In this document: piece after piece, positions 2,231 through 19,503 of the stretch | How positions within the stretch are numbered: position 1 is the first letter of the stretch | How the letters are laid out: every line of letters starts with the position of its first letter | Virus record (IMG/VR): IMGVR_UViG_3300042540_001399 | Coordinates: 226,888-290,887 of that record | From: a virus | DNA length: 64,000 nt | Reading direction: 5' to 3' (one strand) | Notes under the pieces: model-generated | The model's input: only the letters and a program-made list of their open reading frames with translations | Database searches by the model: none | What the model was told of the DNA's origin: nothing | Program-made: the position numbers and the translations under genes

Positions 2231-2839
2231 TTATTTTATATCGGTAGACTCTAAAAGTGTGTAAGAAAATTTGTTACCATGGATTTTTGCCGCTTTTTTA
2301 CATATTGACATAAATTCATCAAAATCTTTAACTCTTTTAAATACCTGACATCCTTCGGACCAATTTTCAACCCAAGTCGAGTCCTGACCGGCTTTGTGTA
2401 TGTTAATACCAAACATTCCTGTGTCTGTTTTAGTTTCTTCAAAAATTAAATCTTTATTAGAATCTCTCCAAACTGTTACATTACCTAATCTTTGGCAAAG
2501 AGCGTCGTATTTCCCTTGATGTTTATCAATTTTCCAAACACCTCGATACTGGCCGGGTACTAATCTTGCAACGCCATTTTTGTTGTGAAATTCCATGACC
2601 CCTTTTTTACCAGGATCACATGTTGCCATCCAACAATGAAATTTCCAACTGCCTGTTTCGTCTTTATAAGTTATCGTTAGACAATCATCAAAAACATTTG
2701 TGACTTTGTCAGCAACACTTGGTTCATTATTTCTAACACCAACAATATTTACATCATAACCTTTGTTAGATGCGTCGTCAAACCATTTAAAATTTTTTGA
2801 TTTGACAGTAGTTTCTATTTGTTCTTTTGTATAACACAT
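2231..2839 (-). CDS. L,D-transpeptidase-like (YkuD-type) protein, 202 aa
   Basis: The C-terminal half carries the YkuD signature: H148 in GINIHKAG and S161-E-G-C164-Q, the expected His and nucleophilic Cys. The family forms or cleaves 3-3 peptidoglycan cross-links or D-amino-acid bonds. No signal peptide is visible, so a phage holin or lysis would be needed for access to the wall, or it rides in the virion. The N-terminal half is unassigned. A late-type element (minus strand, 2854-2861) lies 14 nt upstream. This could be a lysis factor or a wall-modifying enzyme. Confidence 0.75.
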   Translation of the reverse strand: MCYTKEQIETTVKSKNFKWFDDASNKGYDVNIVGVRNNEPSVADKVTNVFDDCLTITYKDETGSWKFHCWMATCDPGKKGVMEFHNKNGVARLVPGQYRGVWKIDKHQGKYDALCQRLGNVTVWRDSNKDLIFEETKTDTGMFGINIHKAGQDSTWVENWSEGCQVFKRVKDFDEFMSICKKAAKIHGNKFSYTLLESTDIK

Positions 2840-2861: not shown

Positions 2862-2893
2862 TAAAGTTTTTCAAAAAGTAAATAGTTTGATAA

Positions 2894-2900
2894 TATTTAT
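2894..2900 (+). promoter_or_regulatory. TATTTAT late-type element abutting a start codon
   Basis: The core ends only 4 nt before ATG 2905. If it works like a T4 late promoter, the transcript would be nearly leaderless. Confidence 0.45.
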
Positions 2901-2904
2901 TAAT

Positions 2905-4662
2905 ATGTCAAAATTGTCTAAAGTATCTTTTTTTATTTCGATAGTGATTATGTCAATTTATTTTGTGACACAATCTTTACTTGTGACAGGAAACATAAGT
3001 TATAGTAAAAATATCGGTTATGCTGGATATATATGTTTTTTACTTTTTGTATCTTTTTTTGGGATTTACATTTATGAATATTTGAAAAAAAACAAAAAAA
3101 TAAAAAAAAGAAGTGATTACGTTAAAAAATTAAATGAAACATTAATATATCAATCATTAAATTCTTCTTTTTTCGAAGGTAACACGTCAGAAGGCGCTAA
3201 AGTTCTAACTAAAGAAGTCAGTAATTCAATCAATGCTGACAGATGCTCAGTTTGGTTGTACAATACAGACAGAACTTCAATTATTTGTCAACAATTGTAT
3301 TCCAAAAAAACTGACAGCTGGGAACAAAATTATGAATTATTAAAAGAAGATTATAAACCTTATTTTTTATCTCTTTTATTAAATCCTATCATAGTTGCAA
3401 ATGATGCAAGAAATCATAGTGCAACATCATGTTTTAAAGACACTTATCTTGACCCATTGGGTATTAAATCTATGCTTGATGTTCCCATTTCCTACAAGGG
3501 AGACACTATTGGGGTAATATGTATTGAAAATTTTGATTTTAGAATTTGGGACCAAGTTGAAATTGATTTTGCTCAAATGTTATCAGCATTATATTCATTT
3601 GCATATTCAATAAAAGAAAATAATAATGTTAATAAGACAATTGATGATATTGAAGGATTTATAGATCATTCGGTATTAGTAAGTAAAACGGATTCTAAGG
3701 GTAAGATAGTTTATGTGAATAAAAAGTTTGAAGATGTTTCTGGTTGGAAACTTAGTCAGGTAATAGGAAAAGATCATAACATTGTTAATTCAGGAAAACA
3801 TACCAAAAATTTTTGGAAAGACATGTATAAAACAACAGTAGAAAAAAGAAAGATTTGGAACCAAATAGTTACAAATAAAACAAAAAAAGGTGAACTTTAT
3901 TGGGTTGATTCTTATATAATGGCAGAATTTGACGAACAAGATTGTTTAAAAGGGTTTATGTCTATAAGGTATGATGTTACAGATTTGATAAAAAAAACTG
4001 AAGAAATAGCGAAGAAAAATGTTTATTTGGAACATGCCGCAAAAATATTAAGACATGATATGCATTCAGGAATTAATACTTACATACCAAGAGGGATAAG
4101 TTCGTTAGAAAGAAGATTGAGTGATAACCAAATTCAAGAATATAAATTGGAAGCCCCTTTGAAAATGTTGAAAGAAGGTCTCAAACACGCTCAGAAAGTT
4201 TATAAAGGTGTTTATGAATTTACTAATTTAGTAAAAAAAGATTCAGTGCTCAACAAAACTAAAGTAAACTTAAAAGAAATATTAGAAAGTTACCTATCAA
4301 CAACATCATATAAATCACAAGTTGTAATTGATACTTTAGAAGACCATGAAGTTAATGAACCTTTATTTTGTACCGCCATCGATAATTTAATTAGAAATGG
4401 CCTCAAATATAATGACAATGATAACAAATTTGTACATTTATATATGGAAGATTTTCAGTTGGTAATTCAGGATAATGGAAGGGGGCTGTCACAAGAAGAA
4501 TTTGACAATTTATCGAAACCATACGTAAGAAAAGAAAACCAAAAAGAAAGTGGTAGTGGTTTAGGTTTAAATATATGTTTAGCAATACTCAAAGAACACG
4601 GATTCAGCGTTTCTTGTGAAAAAAACCATATAGGCACTAAAATTAAAATTAAATTCAAATGA
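2905..4662 (+). CDS. Membrane sensor histidine kinase with GAF and PAS domains
   Basis: Start set at ATG 2905 after the late-type element; an ATG at 2887 is upstream of it. Order: two membrane spans (residues about 7-26 and 39-58), a GAF-like domain (about 80-235), a PAS domain (about 245-370), a linker with the phosphoacceptor box RHDMHSGIN (H384), and a HATPase with N box NLIRNGLKYN, DNGRG and GSGLGLNI. The last 200 or so residues closely match the kinase at 5263. It opens a tightly packed operon with a secreted protein, the second kinase and a receiver protein. The kinase residues look intact. Sensor kinases of this size are exceptional in phages. Confidence 0.9.
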   Translation: MSKLSKVSFFISIVIMSIYFVTQSLLVTGNISYSKNIGYAGYICFLLFVSFFGIYIYEYLKKNKKIKKRSDYVKKLNETLIYQSLNSSFFEGNTSEGAKVLTKEVSNSINADRCSVWLYNTDRTSIICQQLYSKKTDSWEQNYELLKEDYKPYFLSLLLNPIIVANDARNHSATSCFKDTYLDPLGIKSMLDVPISYKGDTIGVICIENFDFRIWDQVEIDFAQMLSALYSFAYSIKENNNVNKTIDDIEGFIDHSVLVSKTDSKGKIVYVNKKFEDVSGWKLSQVIGKDHNIVNSGKHTKNFWKDMYKTTVEKRKIWNQIVTNKTKKGELYWVDSYIMAEFDEQDCLKGFMSIRYDVTDLIKKTEEIAKKNVYLEHAAKILRHDMHSGINTYIPRGISSLERRLSDNQIQEYKLEAPLKMLKEGLKHAQKVYKGVYEFTNLVKKDSVLNKTKVNLKEILESYLSTTSYKSQVVIDTLEDHEVNEPLFCTAIDNLIRNGLKYNDNDNKFVHLYMEDFQLVIQDNGRGLSQEEFDNLSKPYVRKENQKESGSGLGLNICLAILKEHGFSVSCEKNHIGTKIKIKFK

Positions 4663-5261
4663 AAAAAATTTTTTTATTATTCAACTTTTTATTTATAACT
4701 TTTTTGTTACACGGACAAAATTCTTACCCAATCCAAACAATTTTAAAGGGTGATTCAGTTGTAATTTATACCACAGATCAATCAAATGATTTGAATTTGA
4801 CAATAGAAAATCAAAGATTCTTATCATCTACTTATAAAACTAAACTTGAAGACTATAGTAAAAAAATTGACAGTTTAGAAAAAAACATAAATAATAAACA
4901 GATGGTAATAGATAGTTTATATTTAACACATAAAAATCAAGACAGTTTACAACAAAGATTATACGTACTTGAAAATTGGTTAATAAAAGCATCAATTGAC
5001 AACTCTTACATTTATATGTCATGGCCAGATCATACTATTAAATTTGTGGATTTAACATTATATACAGTTCATTGTAGTATGCAAAATGGTACTTTAAGAA
5101 TGATTAGAAGAGGACCAAATGATGAATTTGAAATTTGGAAAGGATTAAATTATATTAGAAAAGAAAGTCCAGAAATTGGTTGGGAAATGAAATATACTGA
5201 AGACGAACGACCAATAGTAAAAAATCTACCAATAAACATAAAAATTAACGACTACAAATAA
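4659..5261 (+). CDS. Exported coiled-coil protein of the signalling operon, 200 aa
   Basis: The start overlaps the upstream kinase stop (ATGA), implying translational coupling. Residues 1-19 are a signal peptide (MKKIFLLFNFLFITFLLHGQ). A coiled-coil stretch follows (about 60-105, with repeated IDSLEKN-like heptads), then a C-terminal domain rich in Trp and Tyr. No family is recognised. Lying between two membrane kinases, it may be a periplasmic partner or ligand sensor (inference from order only). Confidence 0.8.
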   Translation: MKKIFLLFNFLFITFLLHGQNSYPIQTILKGDSVVIYTTDQSNDLNLTIENQRFLSSTYKTKLEDYSKKIDSLEKNINNKQMVIDSLYLTHKNQDSLQQRLYVLENWLIKASIDNSYIYMSWPDHTIKFVDLTLYTVHCSMQNGTLRMIRRGPNDEFEIWKGLNYIRKESPEIGWEMKYTEDERPIVKNLPINIKINDYK

Positions 5262-5262
5262 G

Positions 5263-6717
5263 ATGAAAAAAATAATTTTTATTCTTTTAATATTGTTTTC
5301 ATTCTACAATATAACAATCGCACAAGGACTTATCAAAAATAAAAAAGAAATTACCGAGTCTATGTGGGATCAAGGAGTGCCTGTCTTACCTGAAGATGAA
5401 TATATTTCATCTTTAATTGATAAAGTTGGATTCGATAACTTAAGACAAAGAAATAAAGCCGTTAACAAAGAAGAAGCTAAATTGTGTAGAGAAATTGGTA
5501 TTGCTTTTTACAATAGAGAAATGTATGAAGCTGCTGATTGGTATTTGGAAAGAGTACGAGGTTTTGTTGAAGTTGTTGAACTTGAACCTGAAATAGTTTT
5601 TGAAACTAAAAAAGAAGAAACCGAAGAACCTTCAGAAGATTTATCTGTGGAAGATTTGAAAAGTCTACAGTCAGACAAGGTTTTTTTACAAAACCTACCA
5701 AAAAGTTATGAAAATGTTTCACCTACAGATATGAAAAAATTGGCAGAAGAAATTGAAGGTCAAATAGAAAAACTTATTAAAGAAAAGGAAGAATTACTAA
5801 AAAGACACGCTCCTAAAGAAGTGATAGATGCTAAAGATGCGACTATAGGGTCATTAGGAAAAGAAAAAAAAATCATAGACCTATCAATAGATAAAGACAA
5901 ACTTAAAAATGAAACAAAAGTTTTGGGTATTGAAAAAAGAAATTTGAAATTTTATTTAAATTGGGCAATAGCTATAGGTTTGATATTAATATTAATAATA
6001 TTTGTTTTAATACAGAGAAAAACTATCAAAGGACAGGATAAAGAAATTGATAAACAACTAAATGACATAAATACTAAAAACACGTATTTAGAACATGCGG
6101 CAAGAATAATCAGACATGATATGCATTCTGGTATAAACACATATATTCCAAGGGGTATATCTTCTTTGGAAAAAAGGCTGACTGTCGACGACATGAAAAA
6201 TCTTAAGATCGAAGGTCCAATAAAGATGATTCGTGAAGGTTTAAATCACACCCAAAAAGTTTATAAAAATGTTTATGAATTTACAAATTTAGTTAAACAA
6301 AATGTTGTTTTAGAAAAAACCAAACAAAATATAAAAAATACTTTAGAACAGTTTTTTGTAAAAACATCATACTATAATCAAATCAAAATAAAGAATCTCC
6401 CGACTTTAGAAATTAATGAAGTTCTTTTTTGTGGGGCAATTGAAAACTTTGTGAAAAATGGTCTAAAATACAATAATAACGAAAATAAAGAAGTTTTAAT
6501 TTTTGAAGAAGATAATTATATAGTAGTACAAGATAATGGTATTGGTATGACATCAACTGAATTTGAAAAACAAATTAAAATAGTTTCTAAAGAAGATATT
6601 GGTGAAATCGGTTTAGGCTTAAATATTTCAATTGCCATTTTAAAAGAACACGGATTTAGTGTTGAATGTGAAAAAAATGAAATTGGAACTAAAATAAAAA
6701 TTAAATTTAAAAGTTAA
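5263..6717 (+). CDS. Second sensor histidine kinase, paralogue of the first
   Basis: A signal peptide (1-21) precedes a mostly acidic, helical extracytoplasmic region, a coiled coil (about 155-225), one membrane span (about 228-250, WAIAIGLILILIIFVLIQ) and a kinase core. The box RHDMHSGINTYIPRGISS (H285) is identical to that of the kinase at 2905. N box ENFVKNGLKYN, DNGIG and GLGLNI are present. It starts one base after the preceding stop. The differing sensor parts on a shared core suggest gene duplication followed by sensor exchange, so two inputs may converge on one receiver. Confidence 0.9.
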   Translation: MKKIIFILLILFSFYNITIAQGLIKNKKEITESMWDQGVPVLPEDEYISSLIDKVGFDNLRQRNKAVNKEEAKLCREIGIAFYNREMYEAADWYLERVRGFVEVVELEPEIVFETKKEETEEPSEDLSVEDLKSLQSDKVFLQNLPKSYENVSPTDMKKLAEEIEGQIEKLIKEKEELLKRHAPKEVIDAKDATIGSLGKEKKIIDLSIDKDKLKNETKVLGIEKRNLKFYLNWAIAIGLILILIIFVLIQRKTIKGQDKEIDKQLNDINTKNTYLEHAARIIRHDMHSGINTYIPRGISSLEKRLTVDDMKNLKIEGPIKMIREGLNHTQKVYKNVYEFTNLVKQNVVLEKTKQNIKNTLEQFFVKTSYYNQIKIKNLPTLEINEVLFCGAIENFVKNGLKYNNNENKEVLIFEEDNYIVVQDNGIGMTSTEFEKQIKIVSKEDIGEIGLGLNISIAILKEHGFSVECEKNEIGTKIKIKFKS

Positions 6718-6721
6718 AAAA

Positions 6722-7159
6722 ATGATTGATTCTATTTTATTAGTTGATGATGAGGATTTATTCCACTTGGTGTTTGAAGACGCTTGTTCTTTATTGGACA
6801 TAAGTTTATCTTTAAAATCTATAAATAGTGCAGATGAAGCGGCATCAATGTTTAAAAAATGGTTAGAAGAAAAAACACCAGAAAGTAGACCTGAATGTGT
6901 TTTTGTTGATCTTAATATAATTGGTAGTTCATTTGATGGTATTGAACTTATAAGAAAAATAAATTTCGAATACGGAAATCATGTTGTAATAGGAATTATT
7001 TCATCATCTAACGAACCAGAAGAACAAGCTAAAGCACTACAAGCAGGTGCACAATTTTGGATTATAAAATCTGATGAAATTGAACCTAGACTTGAAGAAT
7101 TCAAAAAAGATTATGATCAGTATAAAAACAGAACCGCACCATTTAAAGTATACAAATGA
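6722..7159 (+). CDS. Single-domain response regulator (receiver only), 145 aa
   Basis: This is a CheY-like receiver: acidic pocket LLVDDED, phosphoacceptor D63 in VFVDLNI, a Ser switch in IISSSNEP and K116 in WIIKSDE. No DNA-binding or enzymatic output domain follows, so it must act by protein contact or phosphotransfer. It begins four bases after the second kinase and its stop overlaps the start of the next gene. The two adjacent kinases are the obvious phosphodonors (inference). Confidence 0.92.
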   Translation: MIDSILLVDDEDLFHLVFEDACSLLDISLSLKSINSADEAASMFKKWLEEKTPESRPECVFVDLNIIGSSFDGIELIRKINFEYGNHVVIGIISSSNEPEEQAKALQAGAQFWIIKSDEIEPRLEEFKKDYDQYKNRTAPFKVYK

Positions 7160-7833
7160 TTAAAATAGATAGTAATACTAAAAAAACTTTAATTGATCTT
7201 TATAACAAAAAGGGTATAGGTCTTGAAGGTAATATTACTAAACTTATAGATGTTGAAAACGACGAAGAGTTCAAAACGTATTTAAAAGAATGTAAGGCTA
7301 AAGACGAAGAAAAAAGAAAAAAACGTCTTGACATGACAAAAAAAATACAAAAACAAAATGAAGATTTGGTTGTTGCAAACACAGAAAACAATAGAATTAT
7401 GGAGGAACTTCAACAAAGTTTACTTGAAGTTGAAGAATCCAAAACAATTTTTGAAAACCAAAACAAAGAACTCAACGATTGGAAAAAAGAAAATTTAGAA
7501 CTGACTGAAAAATTACAAATTGAAATGTCAAACGCTGAAATGGCTAAGTTAGAAGCCTTGAAGGCTAAGGAAATGGCGGAAAATGATTTAGACTTGTTAC
7601 AGAAAAAAAATCAAACAGAACTTATTTCTACTATAGTCAGAGTTGCTTTATGGGTAATTGTTGGTGTTGGTATAATTACTACTGGTGTTTATATGTTCAC
7701 TTTATTATTAGGTAAAGACACACAGGTTATTAGTGCTGCGTGGTCAAATATTTTTGGTATTTTACTTACCAATGCATTTTCAATAGTGGGTACTATTATG
7801 GGGATTAAATATGCAACTGAAAATAAACAATAA
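7156..7833 (+). CDS. Coiled-coil protein with two C-terminal membrane spans, 225 aa
   Basis: ATGA overlap with the response regulator. Residues 40-150 are Lys/Glu-rich and predicted coiled coil. Two hydrophobic spans follow (about 157-178, VALWVIVGVGIITTGVYMF, and about 193-215). No family is recognised. A long cytoplasmic coil tied to a membrane hairpin could be the regulator's output device, for example gating or scaffolding a lysis step, since the endolysin gene follows 10 bp downstream. Confidence 0.8.
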   Translation: MIKIDSNTKKTLIDLYNKKGIGLEGNITKLIDVENDEEFKTYLKECKAKDEEKRKKRLDMTKKIQKQNEDLVVANTENNRIMEELQQSLLEVEESKTIFENQNKELNDWKKENLELTEKLQIEMSNAEMAKLEALKAKEMAENDLDLLQKKNQTELISTIVRVALWVIVGVGIITTGVYMFTLLLGKDTQVISAAWSNIFGILLTNAFSIVGTIMGIKYATENKQ

Positions 7834-7843
7834 AAAATAGATT

Positions 7844-8680
7844 ATGTTACTTAAAGTAGGATCAGAAGGGGCTGATGTAAAAAAACTCCAAGAAAAATTA
7901 GGTGTTGAAACAATAGGAAAGTTTGGACCTAAAACCGAAGCTGCGGTAAAAGCATGGCAAAAAGCAAATGGATTAAAAGATGATGGTATTGTTGGTGATG
8001 CAACTTGGAGCAAAATGTTTGGGGAATCTACCCCAAAAACAAATGTTATTAAAGAAGATGTTGTTATACCAAGTGGTGGTCCTTTAAATATTGAAAAGTT
8101 AAAAGGACACATACCTGATTCTGTTTTGGCCCAAATTCCGGAAACCGCAAAAAAATTTAATATTACAAACAATTTAAGATTAGCACACTTTTTATCACAA
8201 TGTGGTCATGAATCTGGTGGATTCAAAGCTGTCAGTGAAAATTTAAATTATTCAGCCGATGGTTTAAAAAAGATTTTTGGAAAATACTTTCCGGGTAACC
8301 TGAATGAATCTTACGCTCGTAAACCCGAAAAAATTGCGTCCCGTGTTTATGGTAACAGGATGGGAAATGGTGATGAGGCGTCAGGCGAAGGATATAAATT
8401 CAGAGGTAGGGGTTACATCCAACTTACAGGAAAAAGTAACTATACAAATTTTTCTAAATTTATAGGTGAAGATTGTGTTTCAAATCCTGATTTAGTTGCA
8501 ACAAAATATCCTTTAGCGTCTGCGGCATTCTTTTTTGATTCAAATAAATTGTGGTCTATTTGTGACAAGGGAGCCGATGATGCCACTGTTACATCTGTAA
8601 CCAAAAGAGTTAATGGGGGAATTTTAGGTTTATCAGACAGAATTAAACACTTTAAAGAGTATTATAACCTTATTAAGTGA
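7844..8680 (+). CDS. Endolysin: PG-binding domain plus GH19 lysozyme/chitinase
   Basis: Residues 1-60 form a PG_binding_1 module (VGSEGADVKKLQEKLG ... DGIVGDATW). Residues 85-278 are a GH19 domain with the paired catalytic glutamates E123 (GHESGGF) and E132 (SENLNYS) and the conserved FRGRGYIQLTGKSNY and NPDLVA segments. It hydrolyses the glycan backbone of peptidoglycan. There is no signal peptide, so export needs a holin. It follows the signalling operon by 10 bp, and a holin candidate lies 36 bp downstream. Confidence 0.93.
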   Translation: MLLKVGSEGADVKKLQEKLGVETIGKFGPKTEAAVKAWQKANGLKDDGIVGDATWSKMFGESTPKTNVIKEDVVIPSGGPLNIEKLKGHIPDSVLAQIPETAKKFNITNNLRLAHFLSQCGHESGGFKAVSENLNYSADGLKKIFGKYFPGNLNESYARKPEKIASRVYGNRMGNGDEASGEGYKFRGRGYIQLTGKSNYTNFSKFIGEDCVSNPDLVATKYPLASAAFFFDSNKLWSICDKGADDATVTSVTKRVNGGILGLSDRIKHFKEYYNLIK

Positions 8681-8716: not shown

Positions 8717-8884
8717 ATGAAATTAACTAAAGAACAAATTATGGGAATTATCAGACACGGACTAACATTCGTAGGTGGTATTCTTATAATGAAAGGGCTT
8801 GTTACTGAGTCAGTCGTTGCAGACATAACTGGTGCACTTATGACTTTAACAGGTGCTATTTGGTCTATTGTTGATAAAAAATAA
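8717..8884 (+). CDS. Holin candidate, 55 aa
   Basis: A small protein (start MKLTKEQIMGIIRHG) with two short hydrophobic stretches (about 14-25, LTFVGGILIMKG, and 33-50, ADITGALMTLTGAIWSIV) and a charged C-terminus. Its size, two-helix layout and place beside the GH19 endolysin fit small phage holins. It has its own late-type element and a strong terminator, so it can be expressed alone. The alternative is an unrelated membrane peptide. Confidence 0.7.
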   Translation: MKLTKEQIMGIIRHGLTFVGGILIMKGLVTESVVADITGALMTLTGAIWSIVDKK

Positions 8885-8967: not shown

Positions 8968-9624
8968 ATGAAAAAGTTGATAACTGAAAACGAAAAAAAT
9001 AGAATTAGAAAAATGAATTCTATTGATGAAAGTTTATTTTCAGATGTGTTGGCATCAATACAAAAATCAGAAACTTTTCAGGATCTTAAAAAGAAATTCA
9101 AGGAATTAACGGGTGTTGACTTTGAAGAAAAAGAAAAGTCGGGAGATGTAAGCAAAGATTTCAAAAATTATAAAATTACCGAACCTAATGATGATGACAT
9201 CAAGTTTTATAAAAAAATACTTGAAAAATTGGACGCACCTAATACTAAAGAAAATTTAGCGTTTCTTTACGCGTGGAGACAAGCGGAGGGTGCAAAATCC
9301 GCCTTTAACCCTTTTAATACCACACAAGAAATGGATAGTTCAACATTTATGAACTGTCTGAAGAAAAAAGATAATAAGTGTATTGGGGGAGTTAGAAATT
9401 ATAAATCTGAAAAAGATGGAATAGATGCTACAGTCAAAACTTTGAAAAATGGTAGATATGATTGTATTGTTAATGGTTTACAAAAAAATAAAGGGTCAAA
9501 AGATATCGCCAAATGTAGTTCTTTAGATACTTGGGGAACAAAAGACGGTATTTTAAGAGTTTTAGATGGTGGTAAAATAAATCCACCTGAAATATCAAGA
9601 TCCACAATAAAAAAAGTTGATTAA
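8968..9624 (+). CDS. Lysozyme-like domain protein with targeting-type N-terminus, 218 aa
   Basis: The first 20 residues (KKLITENEKNRIRKMNSIDE) are a short basic amphipathic peptide ending in I-D-E, like several other proteins here. From about residue 85 the pattern AWRQAEG...AFNPFNTTQ...GVRNYKSEKDGIDATVKTL matches phage lysozyme or transglycosylase-like domains, with the Glu of AEG as the candidate acid. Two Cys pairs may form disulphides. Likely a virion-borne muralytic protein used at entry. Confidence 0.65.
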   Translation: MKKLITENEKNRIRKMNSIDESLFSDVLASIQKSETFQDLKKKFKELTGVDFEEKEKSGDVSKDFKNYKITEPNDDDIKFYKKILEKLDAPNTKENLAFLYAWRQAEGAKSAFNPFNTTQEMDSSTFMNCLKKKDNKCIGGVRNYKSEKDGIDATVKTLKNGRYDCIVNGLQKNKGSKDIAKCSSLDTWGTKDGILRVLDGGKINPPEISRSTIKKVD

Positions 9625-9625
9625 T

Positions 9626-10234
9626 ATGGAAGAATACGTAGGGATTATTATTGCGTTTATAACAGGTGTGTTGGGACCAATATTACTTTTATACTTGAAA
9701 AACAAATTAGAAAAAAAAGAAAAGCCAGACATGGTCAAAGACACTCTGAGAGTTGCTGAGTTGGTAAATAATAAAATTGAACATATTCGTGAAGAATTTA
9801 ATGCCGATCGTGTTTGGGTTACACAATTTCATAATGGTGGTAATTTTTATCCTACAGGTAAATCAATGGCAAAATTTTCAATAATGTATGAAACAGTAAA
9901 TTCTGGCGTTTCTTCAGTTCAAACTAATTTTCATAATATACCTGTTAACCTTTTTTCTAAGTCTATAAATCAATTATTAAATAACGATACTATTGAAATT
10001 GCCGACTACAAAGATGAAACAATAGCAACTTACGGACTAAAATATATTGCTGAAGATACAGGTTGTAAATCAAGTTACTTATTTGCAATAAAAACAATTG
10101 ATGAAAAGTTTATTGGTACATTAGGTTTAGATTATACCAAAAGAAAAACTAAATTAGATATTGAATCTATAAATCATTTATTGGTTCACGCAACGTCTTT
10201 AGGTGGTGTTTTGATGACACACTTGTCTGAATAA
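9626..10234 (+). CDS. Membrane-anchored GAF-like protein, 202 aa
   Basis: ATG 9626 is used; the same frame could begin at TTG 9617, but a normal start follows directly after the upstream stop. Residues 3-24 form one membrane span (YVGIIIAFITGVLGPILLLYL). The rest resembles a GAF-fold sensor domain (ADRVWVTQFHNGG ... SSYLFAIKTIDEKFIGTLGLDY). No enzymatic output follows. It may bind a small ligand or sense the membrane state near the lysis genes. Confidence 0.65.
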   Translation: MEEYVGIIIAFITGVLGPILLLYLKNKLEKKEKPDMVKDTLRVAELVNNKIEHIREEFNADRVWVTQFHNGGNFYPTGKSMAKFSIMYETVNSGVSSVQTNFHNIPVNLFSKSINQLLNNDTIEIADYKDETIATYGLKYIAEDTGCKSSYLFAIKTIDEKFIGTLGLDYTKRKTKLDIESINHLLVHATSLGGVLMTHLSE

Positions 10235-10269: not shown

Positions 10270-10758
10270 ATGAATATTTTTTTTCTTGACTACGATACCC
10301 AAAAATGTGCACAATATCATTGCGATAAACATGTGGTCAAGATGGTATTAGAAACTGCACAACTTTTATGTGGGGTTCATCATACAACCCCCCAAGTTAC
10401 CCCCCAAGTTCCCTACAAGTTATCCCACAAAAATCACCCATGCGCAATATGGACTCGTGAAAGTTTATCAAACTACTTATATCTTTGTGATCTTGGTTTA
10501 GAATTATGTAATGAATATAGTTTTAGATATGGTAAAACACATAAGTCACAACAAGTAATCGAGTGGTGTCTTGATAATAAACCAAACATAGTTGATAAAG
10601 GTTTTACCACACCACCAAAAGCAATGCCCGATGAATATAAAGTTTTTGACGTTATTGAATCTTATAGAAACTACTATCGTGGGGCAAAAAAAAGTTTTGC
10701 TTCATGGAAAAATAGACAAATACCCGATTGGTTTCAAACTGATGAAGTATTTATATGA
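10270..10758 (+). CDS. Conserved phage protein, possibly a DNA-glycosylase-like fold, 162 aa
   Basis: MNIFFLD, KCAQYHCDKHVVKMVLETAQLL, the KNHPCAIWTRES segment and the C-terminal PPKAMPDEYKV and YRNYY...W form a pattern I know from conserved proteins of cyanophages and other T4-like phages. Some are annotated as pyrimidine-dimer glycosylase-like. Catalysis is not established and I would not assert it. The stop overlaps the next start (ATGA). A Pro-rich loop contains a repeated TTPQVTPQV segment. Confidence 0.7.
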   Translation: MNIFFLDYDTQKCAQYHCDKHVVKMVLETAQLLCGVHHTTPQVTPQVPYKLSHKNHPCAIWTRESLSNYLYLCDLGLELCNEYSFRYGKTHKSQQVIEWCLDNKPNIVDKGFTTPPKAMPDEYKVFDVIESYRNYYRGAKKSFASWKNRQIPDWFQTDEVFI

Positions 10759-12296
10759 TAAAATCATATATGAAAGGTTTATTAAATGAACATTTGACTA
10801 GAATAAGATCATTGATGTCTATCAATGAATCTTTAGTTGATGCATACCCAAAATTTTCGAAAAAAATATTTGATGAAGTAGACCCTACTTGGGGTGGTGG
10901 GCCAAATTCGCATTCATCAAGACACCCTGATGCATCCGGCAAAGATTGGTTTAGTAATAACGCATACGACATCATGGCACCTGAAGGGACACCAATATAT
11001 TCAATATCGGAAGGTTATGTTGATAAAATTACCGACAATCCACCAGGTTTAAGATCAGTTGGTGGTAAGAGAATTTATGGGGACAGTTTAACCATTAGAG
11101 GAACAGGGGGTGATCCCGATGTTTTCTACACACATGTAACAAAAATTGTTGTTGAAGAGGGACAATACGTTGATAGGGGTCAATTATTAGCATTCATAAT
11201 CAAAGGGGAGTTGGGTATACCTGAACACGTTCATGTTGCAGTAAAAGTTGGTGATGTGAAAGATTTCTTAGATGTTGATGGAAACATAAACAGAGTCAAT
11301 ATTGATTTAGTGGATAGACTAAAAATCTTACCAACAAACAAGGAACTTGAAGTGACAACCGACCCAAAAACAATAATGGGCGCTGCGGCCGGTCTTACCG
11401 CATCAGCTATAAGTTCTTTAAATATTAATAGACCTGAGTCTGACATCAGTGGCATTGCAACAAGATTCGGTATTAAAGATACTGATGTTAACATGGATTC
11501 GGTATCAGGTGTTTTGAATAAAATAATATTATCTTCTGAAGGTCTTGGTACTGATGAAACTGGAATTCATGATGCAATAAAGAAATTAAAAAGTTGTTAT
11601 GAACTTGATGAAATTAACAAAATTGTAGAAAGAAAAGAAATCGACGGAAAAAAATACAAAGACATTTATGATTATATAAATAGTGAAATGAATTATGGTG
11701 ATGAGCTGTTTGTAAAAAGTTTAGTAAAAACCATAAATAATATATGTCCTGATACCGTAACTGATAAAGGTACTCAAATAGTGAAAGTAACAAGATCATC
11801 ATCTTTAGGATCTGGAATCGATAGAGTCAGTCCTATAAAATTATTAAATGATCTAAAATCATATGGATTATCTGATAAGGCCGCCAAAGGTGTTGTTGCG
11901 AATGCTTTTGGTGAAAGTGGGTTTAACGTTAAGGCTAAAGGAGATTCTGGACCCAACGCCGAAAACAACACAAGATCAATAAATATAGATGGTAAAAAAT
12001 ACTGTTCGTTTGGATTGTGGCAATATAATGTCTGTGGTGGTATGGGGGTTTCTTATTTGAAGAACTATAATATAGATGTTGACAGATCAACAGACGCTGA
12101 AAAAATCAGGGTTCTATTTGATTATAATAAACAAATTGAATTTATGTCTAAAAGAATTAAAGAAGAACAATCCAAAAGCGAAAAAGATGTTAGAACATGG
12201 ATTGATTGGATTGTTGATAATGTAGAAAGACCATCAGATAGATACGGTGCAAAAATGAAAAGACAAGAATTTGCAAAACAACAAGGTTGGTCTTAA
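10755..12296 (+). CDS. M23-like and phage tail-lysozyme two-domain protein, 513 aa
   Basis: Residues 7-25 (KGLLNEHLTRIRSLMSINE) are the targeting-type peptide ending in I-N-E. Residues 50-165 are an M23/LytM-like fold with YDIMAPEGTPI, FYTHV and HVHVAV (H158, H160). The usual first zinc ligand (His of HxxxD) is N68 before D72, so this half may be inactive or rewired. The middle is unassigned. The C-terminal 140 residues resemble a tail lysozyme (GVVANAFGESGF, SFGLWQYN), with the Glu of GESGF as candidate catalytic residue. Probably a virion cell-wall-piercing protein. Confidence 0.75.
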   Translation: MIKSYMKGLLNEHLTRIRSLMSINESLVDAYPKFSKKIFDEVDPTWGGGPNSHSSRHPDASGKDWFSNNAYDIMAPEGTPIYSISEGYVDKITDNPPGLRSVGGKRIYGDSLTIRGTGGDPDVFYTHVTKIVVEEGQYVDRGQLLAFIIKGELGIPEHVHVAVKVGDVKDFLDVDGNINRVNIDLVDRLKILPTNKELEVTTDPKTIMGAAAGLTASAISSLNINRPESDISGIATRFGIKDTDVNMDSVSGVLNKIILSSEGLGTDETGIHDAIKKLKSCYELDEINKIVERKEIDGKKYKDIYDYINSEMNYGDELFVKSLVKTINNICPDTVTDKGTQIVKVTRSSSLGSGIDRVSPIKLLNDLKSYGLSDKAAKGVVANAFGESGFNVKAKGDSGPNAENNTRSINIDGKKYCSFGLWQYNVCGGMGVSYLKNYNIDVDRSTDAEKIRVLFDYNKQIEFMSKRIKEEQSKSEKDVRTWIDWIVDNVERPSDRYGAKMKRQEFAKQQGWS

Positions 12297-17430: not shown

Positions 17431-17457
17431 AAAGGAGGACTTTTAATCCTCCTTTTT
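17431..17457. terminator. Bidirectional terminator
   Basis: AAAGGAGGA (17431-17439), loop CTTTTAA, TCCTCCTTT (17447-17455). T-runs follow on both strands. The stop codon of the minus-strand ClpC-like gene (17445-17443) sits in the loop. Confidence 0.85.
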
Positions 17458-19503
17458 CTTTCTACCTTTTTTCTTGGGTTCAGGTTTAGATCTATCTTCT
17501 ATACTTATTGTTTGTGTTTCTCCTTCTCCCTCAACAAATAACATATAATCAGTTCCTTCGACAACTTCGTTTGTTAGAATTTTTTCAGAAATAAGATCTT
17601 CTATTTTATCTTGTATTGCTCTTTTTATTGGTCTTGCACCATATTGGTCATCAAACCCAACTTTTGATATGAAATCAATGACAGAATTTTCATATGAAAC
17701 TTTGTATTTCATAGATGATAATCTAGAAATGAGTTTATCAATTTCTAATTTAACAATTTTATCTATGTGATCTTTTTTAAGTGAATTAAAAATAATAACG
17801 TCATCAATTCTATTTAAAAATTCAGGTGCAAAAAACTTACTTAATTCTTTTTTAAGAATGTCTCTTTTATATTCTTCTTGGATTGCATCACTATTATTAT
17901 TTGTTTTAAAACCAACACCACTACCAAAATCCTGTAATTTCTTTACCCCAATATTTGATGTCATAATTATTAGGCAATTTTTGAAATTTATTTTTCTGCC
18001 TAATCCGTCAGTTAAATGGCCATCATCCAACAATTGAAGTAATGTGGAAAAAACATCTTTATTTGCCTTTTCAATTTCATCAAACAAAATTACAGAATAA
18101 GGTTTGTTCTTTACTTGCTCTGTTAATTGACCCCCTTCTTCATGACCAACGTATCCTGGTGGTGATCCTATCAAACGTGAAATGGTATGTTTTTCTTGAA
18201 ACTCACTCATATCTACCCTAATTAAACTATCTTCACTACCAAATATTTCTTTTGCCAATTGTTTTGCTAAAAAAGTTTTACCAACACCTGTTGATCCTAA
18301 AAATATAAAAGAACCAATTGGTCTATTTGGATCTTTTATACCTACCCTATTTCTTCTTATAGATTTAGAAATTTTACCTACAGCTTCTTCCTGTCCAATT
18401 ACATTTTTATTTAATGTTGTTTCAAGATTGACTAAAGAATTTTTTTCATCAATGTTTATTTTACTAACAGGAATTTTAGTCATGTTGGACACAACTTCGT
18501 AAATTAGTTCTTCAGGTATACCCCTTTTACTATTTTTAAGGTCTTCTTCAAATTTCTTTTTTTCTTCTTCAAGTTTTAAGAGAATACTTCTTTCACGATC
18601 CCTAAGTTCTGCCGCTTGTTCATAATTTTGTTTTTTTATGACATTAAGTTTTTCTTGTTTAATTTCTTGGGCTTCTATTTTCAATTTTTCAATTGACTCG
18701 GGTAGTTTAATATCTATTTGCATTCGTGACCCAACCTCATCTAAAATATCAAAAGCTTTATCTGGAAATTCCCGATCGGTAATATATCTATCCGCTAGCT
18801 CAACACATAACCAAAGTGAATCATCAGTGTAATTAACTTTGTGATGTTCTTCATACTTCGATTTACTTTGTTTCAGAATTTCAAAAGTTTCTTCTTTTGT
18901 TGATGGATCTACAATAATTTTTTGAAACCGTCTTTCTAAAGCCCCATCTTTTTCGAAATGTTTTCTATACTCATCTAAAGTGGTTGCTCCAATACACTGT
19001 ATTTCACCTCTTGAAAGTGCTGGTTTAAATATGTTTGATGCATCCAAAGAACCCGAGCTATTACCGGCACCAACCATAGTGTGAATTTCGTCGATAAAAA
19101 GAATAATGTTAGGCGTGTTTTGAAGTTCTTCTATTATAACTTTCATTCTTTCTTCAAACTGACCTCTATATTTTGTTCCAGCAACAATAGAATTTATATC
19201 TAAGGAAACTATCCTTTTATCTACTAAATTTTTTGGACAATCGCCACTATAAATCATCATTGCCAAACCTTCTGCAATTGCCGTTTTACCTGCACCTGGT
19301 TCTCCAATAATAATAGGATTATTTTTCTTTCTTCTTGAAAGAACTTGAGCAATCCTAAAAATTTCTTTTTCTCTACCAATTACTGGATCTAATTTACCTT
19401 GTTCGGCAAGTTTAATTAAATCTTTACTAAAATTGTCTAAAACAGGCGTTCCACCATCTGTCTTTTTTTTGTTTTTTTCATTATCATCTACAAAATCTAA
19501 CAT
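17443..19503 (-). CDS. clpC: ClpC-like AAA+ unfoldase lacking the N domain, 686 aa
   Basis: Two AAA+ modules: Walker A GEPGAGKT (67-74) with Walker B ILFIDEIH, and Walker A GSTGVGKT (about 400) with Walker B VILFDEIEKA. Between them, near residue 290, is a UVR-type motif (YEQAAELRDRER), diagnostic of ClpC over ClpA or ClpB. A V-G-F tripeptide near residue 527 fits the loop that docks on ClpP. The protein starts almost directly at the first AAA module, so the roughly 150-residue adaptor-binding N domain is missing. It probably redirects host ClpP. The UVR protein starting at 19663 on the other strand is a likely partner. Confidence 0.92.
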   Translation of the reverse strand: MLDFVDDNEKNKKKTDGGTPVLDNFSKDLIKLAEQGKLDPVIGREKEIFRIAQVLSRRKKNNPIIIGEPGAGKTAIAEGLAMMIYSGDCPKNLVDKRIVSLDINSIVAGTKYRGQFEERMKVIIEELQNTPNIILFIDEIHTMVGAGNSSGSLDASNIFKPALSRGEIQCIGATTLDEYRKHFEKDGALERRFQKIIVDPSTKEETFEILKQSKSKYEEHHKVNYTDDSLWLCVELADRYITDREFPDKAFDILDEVGSRMQIDIKLPESIEKLKIEAQEIKQEKLNVIKKQNYEQAAELRDRERSILLKLEEEKKKFEEDLKNSKRGIPEELIYEVVSNMTKIPVSKINIDEKNSLVNLETTLNKNVIGQEEAVGKISKSIRRNRVGIKDPNRPIGSFIFLGSTGVGKTFLAKQLAKEIFGSEDSLIRVDMSEFQEKHTISRLIGSPPGYVGHEEGGQLTEQVKNKPYSVILFDEIEKANKDVFSTLLQLLDDGHLTDGLGRKINFKNCLIIMTSNIGVKKLQDFGSGVGFKTNNNSDAIQEEYKRDILKKELSKFFAPEFLNRIDDVIIFNSLKKDHIDKIVKLEIDKLISRLSSMKYKVSYENSVIDFISKVGFDDQYGARPIKRAIQDKIEDLISEKILTNEVVEGTDYMLFVEGEGETQTISIEDRSKPEPKKKGRKKKED

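Follow-up and report, generated by a model that had tools for sequence, protein, structure and literature searches.

A predicted bacterial-type sensor circuit, often located beside lysis genes, in a large family of uncultured giant phages

Canonical bacterial two-component systems combine kinases with a DHp and HATPase_c fold (N, G1 and G2 boxes) and receivers with an acidic pair, Asp, Ser and Lys. The Pfam HisKA signature is not obligatory for two-component kinases, further DHp families being in existence, and stand-alone receivers such as DivK (DivL/CckA) and CheY act through protein binding (cf. PMC9430884). In jumbo phages, the cREC domain was described as never found with histidine kinases (PMC7824862). 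Among phage lysis regulators, T4 lysis inhibition involves the holin T and the antiholin RI, and gp62 of phage N4 has two membrane spans and both ends in the cytoplasm (PMC12642591). The open-access papers searched did not describe any histidine kinase circuit encoded by a phage.

The module described here has all the kinase and receiver features of the canonical systems listed above; it differs from them in being encoded by a phage, in a DHp region too divergent for Pfam HisKA, and in a receiver (REC) that is coupled to a two-span membrane protein (CC2) in place of a DNA-binding output. Like DivK and CheY, REC has no output domain, and CC2 has a bacterial relative, sharing its N-terminal domain, that is a kinase in its own right; however, the putative phage partner is a membrane-hairpin protein, neither a kinase nor a motor. 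Both REC and cREC are receiver-like proteins of jumbo phages but REC, unlike cREC, always lies downstream of a histidine kinase. The likeness to T4 lysis inhibition and N4 gp62 (itself two-span) would be that the phage senses conditions and a membrane regulator, putatively CC2, adjusts lysis; the difference is that a kinase-receiver pair would carry the signal, and that T4 holin T (PF11031) had no match in the 290-kb record.

The window analysed (64,000 nucleotides) is the last 64 kb of a virus record of 290,887 bases belonging to a T4-like jumbo phage, whose head and portal genes, present in the same window, are of T4 type; the nearest named relatives of these head and portal proteins, Flavobacterium phages among them, are about 41–46% identical. 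Five tightly packed open reading frames occupy positions 2887–7833 of the plus strand: a kinase, HK1 (2887 with a TTG start or 2905 with an ATG start, to 4662); an exported coiled-coil protein, EXP (4659–5261); a second kinase, HK2 (5263–6717); REC (6722–7159); and CC2 (7156–7833). They are followed by an endolysin gene (7844–8680, PG_binding_1 and GH19 domains by Pfam) and by a 55-amino acid holin of the Phage_holin_10 (Pam3 gp28) family (8717–8884, 1.1e-15), each the sole member of its kind found in the 290-kb record. All five frames of the operon claimed by the original prediction were recovered, and Pfam confirms the kinase and receiver domains; the dense packing and the endolysin start 10 bp after CC2 are likewise borne out by the coordinates (from HK1 to the endolysin, a 4-bp overlap, a 1-bp gap, a 4-bp gap, a 4-bp overlap and a 10-bp gap).

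Several other genes surround the operon. Four tRNA genes (Glu, Asp, Met, Arg; 206–1220) lie just upstream, and a 202-amino acid protein is encoded divergently from HK1 (2231–2839, minus strand); it is weakly similar to the endolysin profile, belongs to no Pfam family and stands beside the module in about 22 loci. Beyond the holin, a membrane-anchored 205-amino acid protein with a TTG start (9617–10234) matches phrog_38864 (function unknown), is conserved at about 88% in some 16 loci close to the module, and has a GAF-like look with no match to any GAF model. The product of 10270–10758 barely passes the Pfam threshold of the pyrimidine dimer DNA glycosylase family. A second enzyme acting on the cell wall, encoded at 10755–12296 and 2 kb past the holin, combines an M23 peptidase domain with a phage tail lysozyme domain. 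A 686-amino acid protein (17443–19503, minus strand) is a very strong match to phrog_4871, an ATP-dependent protease.

HK1 has two N-terminal membrane spans followed by GAF, PAS, DHp and HATPase_c domains, and HK2 has a signal peptide, an exported helical domain, a coiled coil, one span (227–257), a DHp with H285 and HATPase_c. The HATPase_c domains were detected by Pfam in both (HK1 1.1e-13, HK2 1.1e-8), as were the GAF and PAS domains of HK1. Pfam HisKA gave no match in HK1 (P0001) or HK2 (P0003), and the DHp was seen only through longer histidine kinase profiles and the fold: the AlphaFold model of HK2 (pLDDT 82) has histidine kinases as its best solved matches, including the HK853-RR468 complex (E about 1e-7). 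The predicted phosphoacceptor of HK1 is H390 counted from the TTG at 2887, that is, H384 from the ATG at 2905. Among relatives, RHDMHSG is conserved together with the N, DNG.G and GLGLN boxes (N, G1 and G2), and the DHp stretch RHDMHSGINTY(I/M)PRG is identical in 176 of 193 kinase frames, a count that includes copies from overlapping loci. HATPase_c was detected in 42 of the 43 kinases of module loci; the sensor parts of these 43 vary (PAS in 28, GAF in 14). The kinase ends, predicted to be near-identical, turned out to be merely similar (identity 69% in the DHp helices and 59% in the catalytic domain), and the same gradient holds for same-operon kinase pairs in general, with median identities of 72% and 53%, respectively, as would be expected if both kinases had to fit the same receiver.

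At least 10 changes in kinase number are seen along the REC+CC2 tree, and the second kinase is gained and lost together with EXP, which is present in 16 of 20 two-kinase units and in none of the 37 one-kinase units. EXP, which has a signal peptide followed by the conserved motif YPIQT.xKGDSVVILT and belongs to no family in the databases, is a probable periplasmic partner of HK2. A role as lipoprotein spanin was considered for EXP and not adopted, a lipobox cysteine not being visible in its alignment.

REC is a stand-alone receiver of 145 amino acids (Response_reg by Pfam, 1.2e-9). As had been predicted for Asp63 and Lys116, its catalytic residues are intact: D9, D10, D63, S94/S95 and K116 are invariant across 25 aligned phage relatives. 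REC is under strong purifying selection (median dN/dS about 0.07; the corresponding medians are 0.13 in the endolysin, 0.15 in the kinase core and 0.17 in CC2), and in the large records it is at least as conserved as the T4-type head protein (76–84% for the latter). A role as transcriptional response regulator was ruled out, REC being a receiver domain alone, with no DNA-binding output, and the sole receiver in the record. Since the 290-kb record holds this one receiver and two HATPase_c domains, the circuit would be self-contained and would not include a regulator that binds DNA. The predicted two-component operon on a phage is borne out by its domain content, by catalytic residues that do not vary, by the selection acting on it and by its retention in hundreds of related contigs; the recurrence under purifying selection also rules out a chance find. 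We consider it very probable, judging from sequence, that the module is a functioning two-component system.

CC2 consists of an N-terminal domain (about 1–60, here called LEGN), a long coiled coil and two membrane spans (154–186 and 199–217), modelled by AlphaFold as the N-terminal domain, a single 148-residue helix and a hairpin (pLDDT 85, pTM 0.33). Polar residues of the second span are invariant (TN..SI.GT..G.KY), as would fit a packed or pore-forming hairpin. Searches against solved structures matched nothing useful, and the one good match among viral structures was a 52% relative. No PHROG match was found for CC2 (P0005), and matches through the coiled coil among PDB and PHROGs were discarded as compositional. 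Pfam did not identify CC2 as a known holin or antiholin, even when its membrane end was searched with E values up to 1 allowed, and the searches did not support its being a known defence protein or a solved fold. Its holin-like features are the two spans and its position in the lysis cassette of this window, an adjacency that is not universal.

The clearest pointer to the role of CC2 comes from a Bacteroidota contig (L089) in which a kinase and a REC relative (70% identical) are accompanied by a CC2-like protein. This protein shares the N-terminal domain of CC2 (36% identity over 120 residues, E 2e-15; profile E 1.6e-23), and its C-terminal part is HisKA plus HATPase_c, where phage CC2 has its two membrane spans. 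The fusion suggests that the CC2-type N-terminal domain is a swappable input unit associated with this receiver and, taken with the lack of an effector domain in REC, that the CC2 membrane hairpin is probably the output in the phage. That CC2 is the output of the circuit, phosphorylated receiver acting on a membrane effector rather than on DNA, is accordingly our favoured reading, which we hold to be somewhat more probable than its negation. By analogy, CC2 could work like N4 gp62 or fill the role of RI in T4 lysis inhibition. A second bacterial locus (L090, 7032–10432), on a chromosome, has tandem PAS kinases that look recently duplicated, and a REC without CC2.

Relatives of REC occur in at least 587 contigs of IMG/VR (82–92% identity among the best 80) and relatives of CC2 in at least 527, so that the module recurs in related phages, a conservation whose absence had been named as refuting the prediction. 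Neither protein has relatives in 50,697 named phage records; tblastn of HK2, REC, CC2 and EXP against INPHARED gave no match, and HK1 gave generic weak kinase or PAS matches alone, one of them in a bacterial-looking contig. Contrary to the prediction, histidine kinases are not exceptional within the present phage group; they are so in named isolates. Three REC loci were found in the 84,980 species genomes scanned, and in samples of 395, 291 and 198 Bacteroidota genomes the REC/CC2 family was present solely in the source genome (1/395); this near-absence indicates that phages are the main home of the family. The host phylum is probably Bacteroidota. Kinase, REC and CC2 follow one another in every phage locus whose contig extends far enough, with one or two kinases directly upstream of REC, and in the fetched loci REC adjoins CC2, almost always with an overlap of a few bases (90 distinct units, dereplicated solely by identical REC and kinase ends). 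Two near-complete records, G674 (296 kb) and G675 (272 kb), close to this phage by their head protein, have the endolysin family and no REC or module, indicating that the module is accessory and not needed for lysis.

From these features we propose the following mechanism. HK1, with HK2 and EXP where present, would respond to a signal by autophosphorylation of the His in RHDMHSG; the phosphoryl group would pass from the kinases to Asp63 of REC, as the intact residues suggest; binding of REC to the LEGN domain at the N terminus of CC2 would then alter the coiled coil and two spans of the latter; and CC2 would change the state of the membrane and help to time lysis by holin and endolysin, in the manner of the T4 antiholins. 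The last step is the least certain. Taken whole, this reading, in which the phage has a two-component system complete in itself that ends in a membrane effector and has a proposed part in lysis timing, stands for us at an even chance.

The link to lysis derives from gene neighbourhood. Among 28 fully flanked distinct loci, which are related to one another so that the counts are not independent, a GH19 endolysin lies near the module in 17, making it the commonest family after the kinase, REC and CC2 (a higher count, 29/43, was set aside in favour of 17/28 as it includes weak matches to the 202-amino acid protein). It is found directly after CC2, 1 kb or 2 kb after it, or upstream on the opposite strand, and stays near even though the arrangement changes 17 times or more along the REC+CC2 tree. 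In 14 different large module-bearing records, a GH19 relative lies within 3 kb of REC in 8; in the remaining ones it is distant, weakly similar or was not found. The predicted timing of lysis has the position beside the endolysin in its favour, and against it those loci in which no close GH19 endolysin lies anywhere near the module (L047, L056, L065 and others). Phages carrying the module may sense conditions before choosing the time of lysis, and lysis timing is our best single guess at its purpose, although we rate it a little short of even.

Nearly as credible is that module and lysis genes merely share residence in a variable region by tRNA genes, with no functional link between them. The four tRNA genes upstream of the operon fit this explanation, tRNA and other variable-region genes also recur near module loci, unrelated families are frequent neighbours too (phosphoesterase, the next commonest, in 10/28 loci and DnaK in 9/28), and in 11/28 loci no GH19 relative is near. 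Against it, the endolysin is clearly the top extra neighbour, in at least four placements and on both strands.

A role in superinfection exclusion or as an abortive effector appears unlikely. Here a second phage or envelope damage would be the signal for the kinases, REC would make CC2 depolarise or close the membrane, and normal lysis timing would not be involved; the two-span membrane end of CC2 with its invariant polar residues would suit such an effector, the module shares with such genes an accessory and mobile character, and many of its copies lie away from lysis genes. However, REC, CC2 and EXP gave chance-level matches alone against defence libraries (PADLOC models), and the commonest extra neighbour is an endolysin.

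Less probable still is that REC and the kinases act chiefly on host signalling, draining or feeding host phosphorelays while CC2 just anchors REC at the membrane. Stand-alone receivers often bind other kinases, as DivK does, and REC lies beside a kinase with the CC2 domain in L089; yet the near invariance of DHp and REC across many phages is more in keeping with a closed circuit than with adjustment to a range of hosts, and Bacteroidota genomes lack the family almost completely. Finally, the rarity of histidine kinases in named phages might suggest host DNA or an assembly artefact on a viral contig, which we reject with near certainty given the T4-type head and portal genes in the same window and the recurrence of the arrangement in three independent assemblies and in hundreds of other contigs.

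The preferred reading, a phage-borne circuit with CC2 as its membrane output, would mean that a large family of uncultured giant phages carries a bacterial-type sensor circuit, often beside lysis genes, and that a receiver has been paired with a dedicated family of membrane proteins, the bacterial relative suggesting how the output was swapped. More tentatively, and below an even chance in our judgement, T4-like jumbo phages might time lysis by a private phosphorelay with exchangeable kinases, one invariant receiver and a dedicated two-span effector, the last made by swapping the kinase half of a bacterial relay protein for a membrane hairpin. The module's REC, HK2 and CC2 matched no named phage record, and yet it is present in hundreds of environmental phage contigs and raises a directly testable question: whether virulent phages read signals via phosphorelays during infection and so set the time of lysis.
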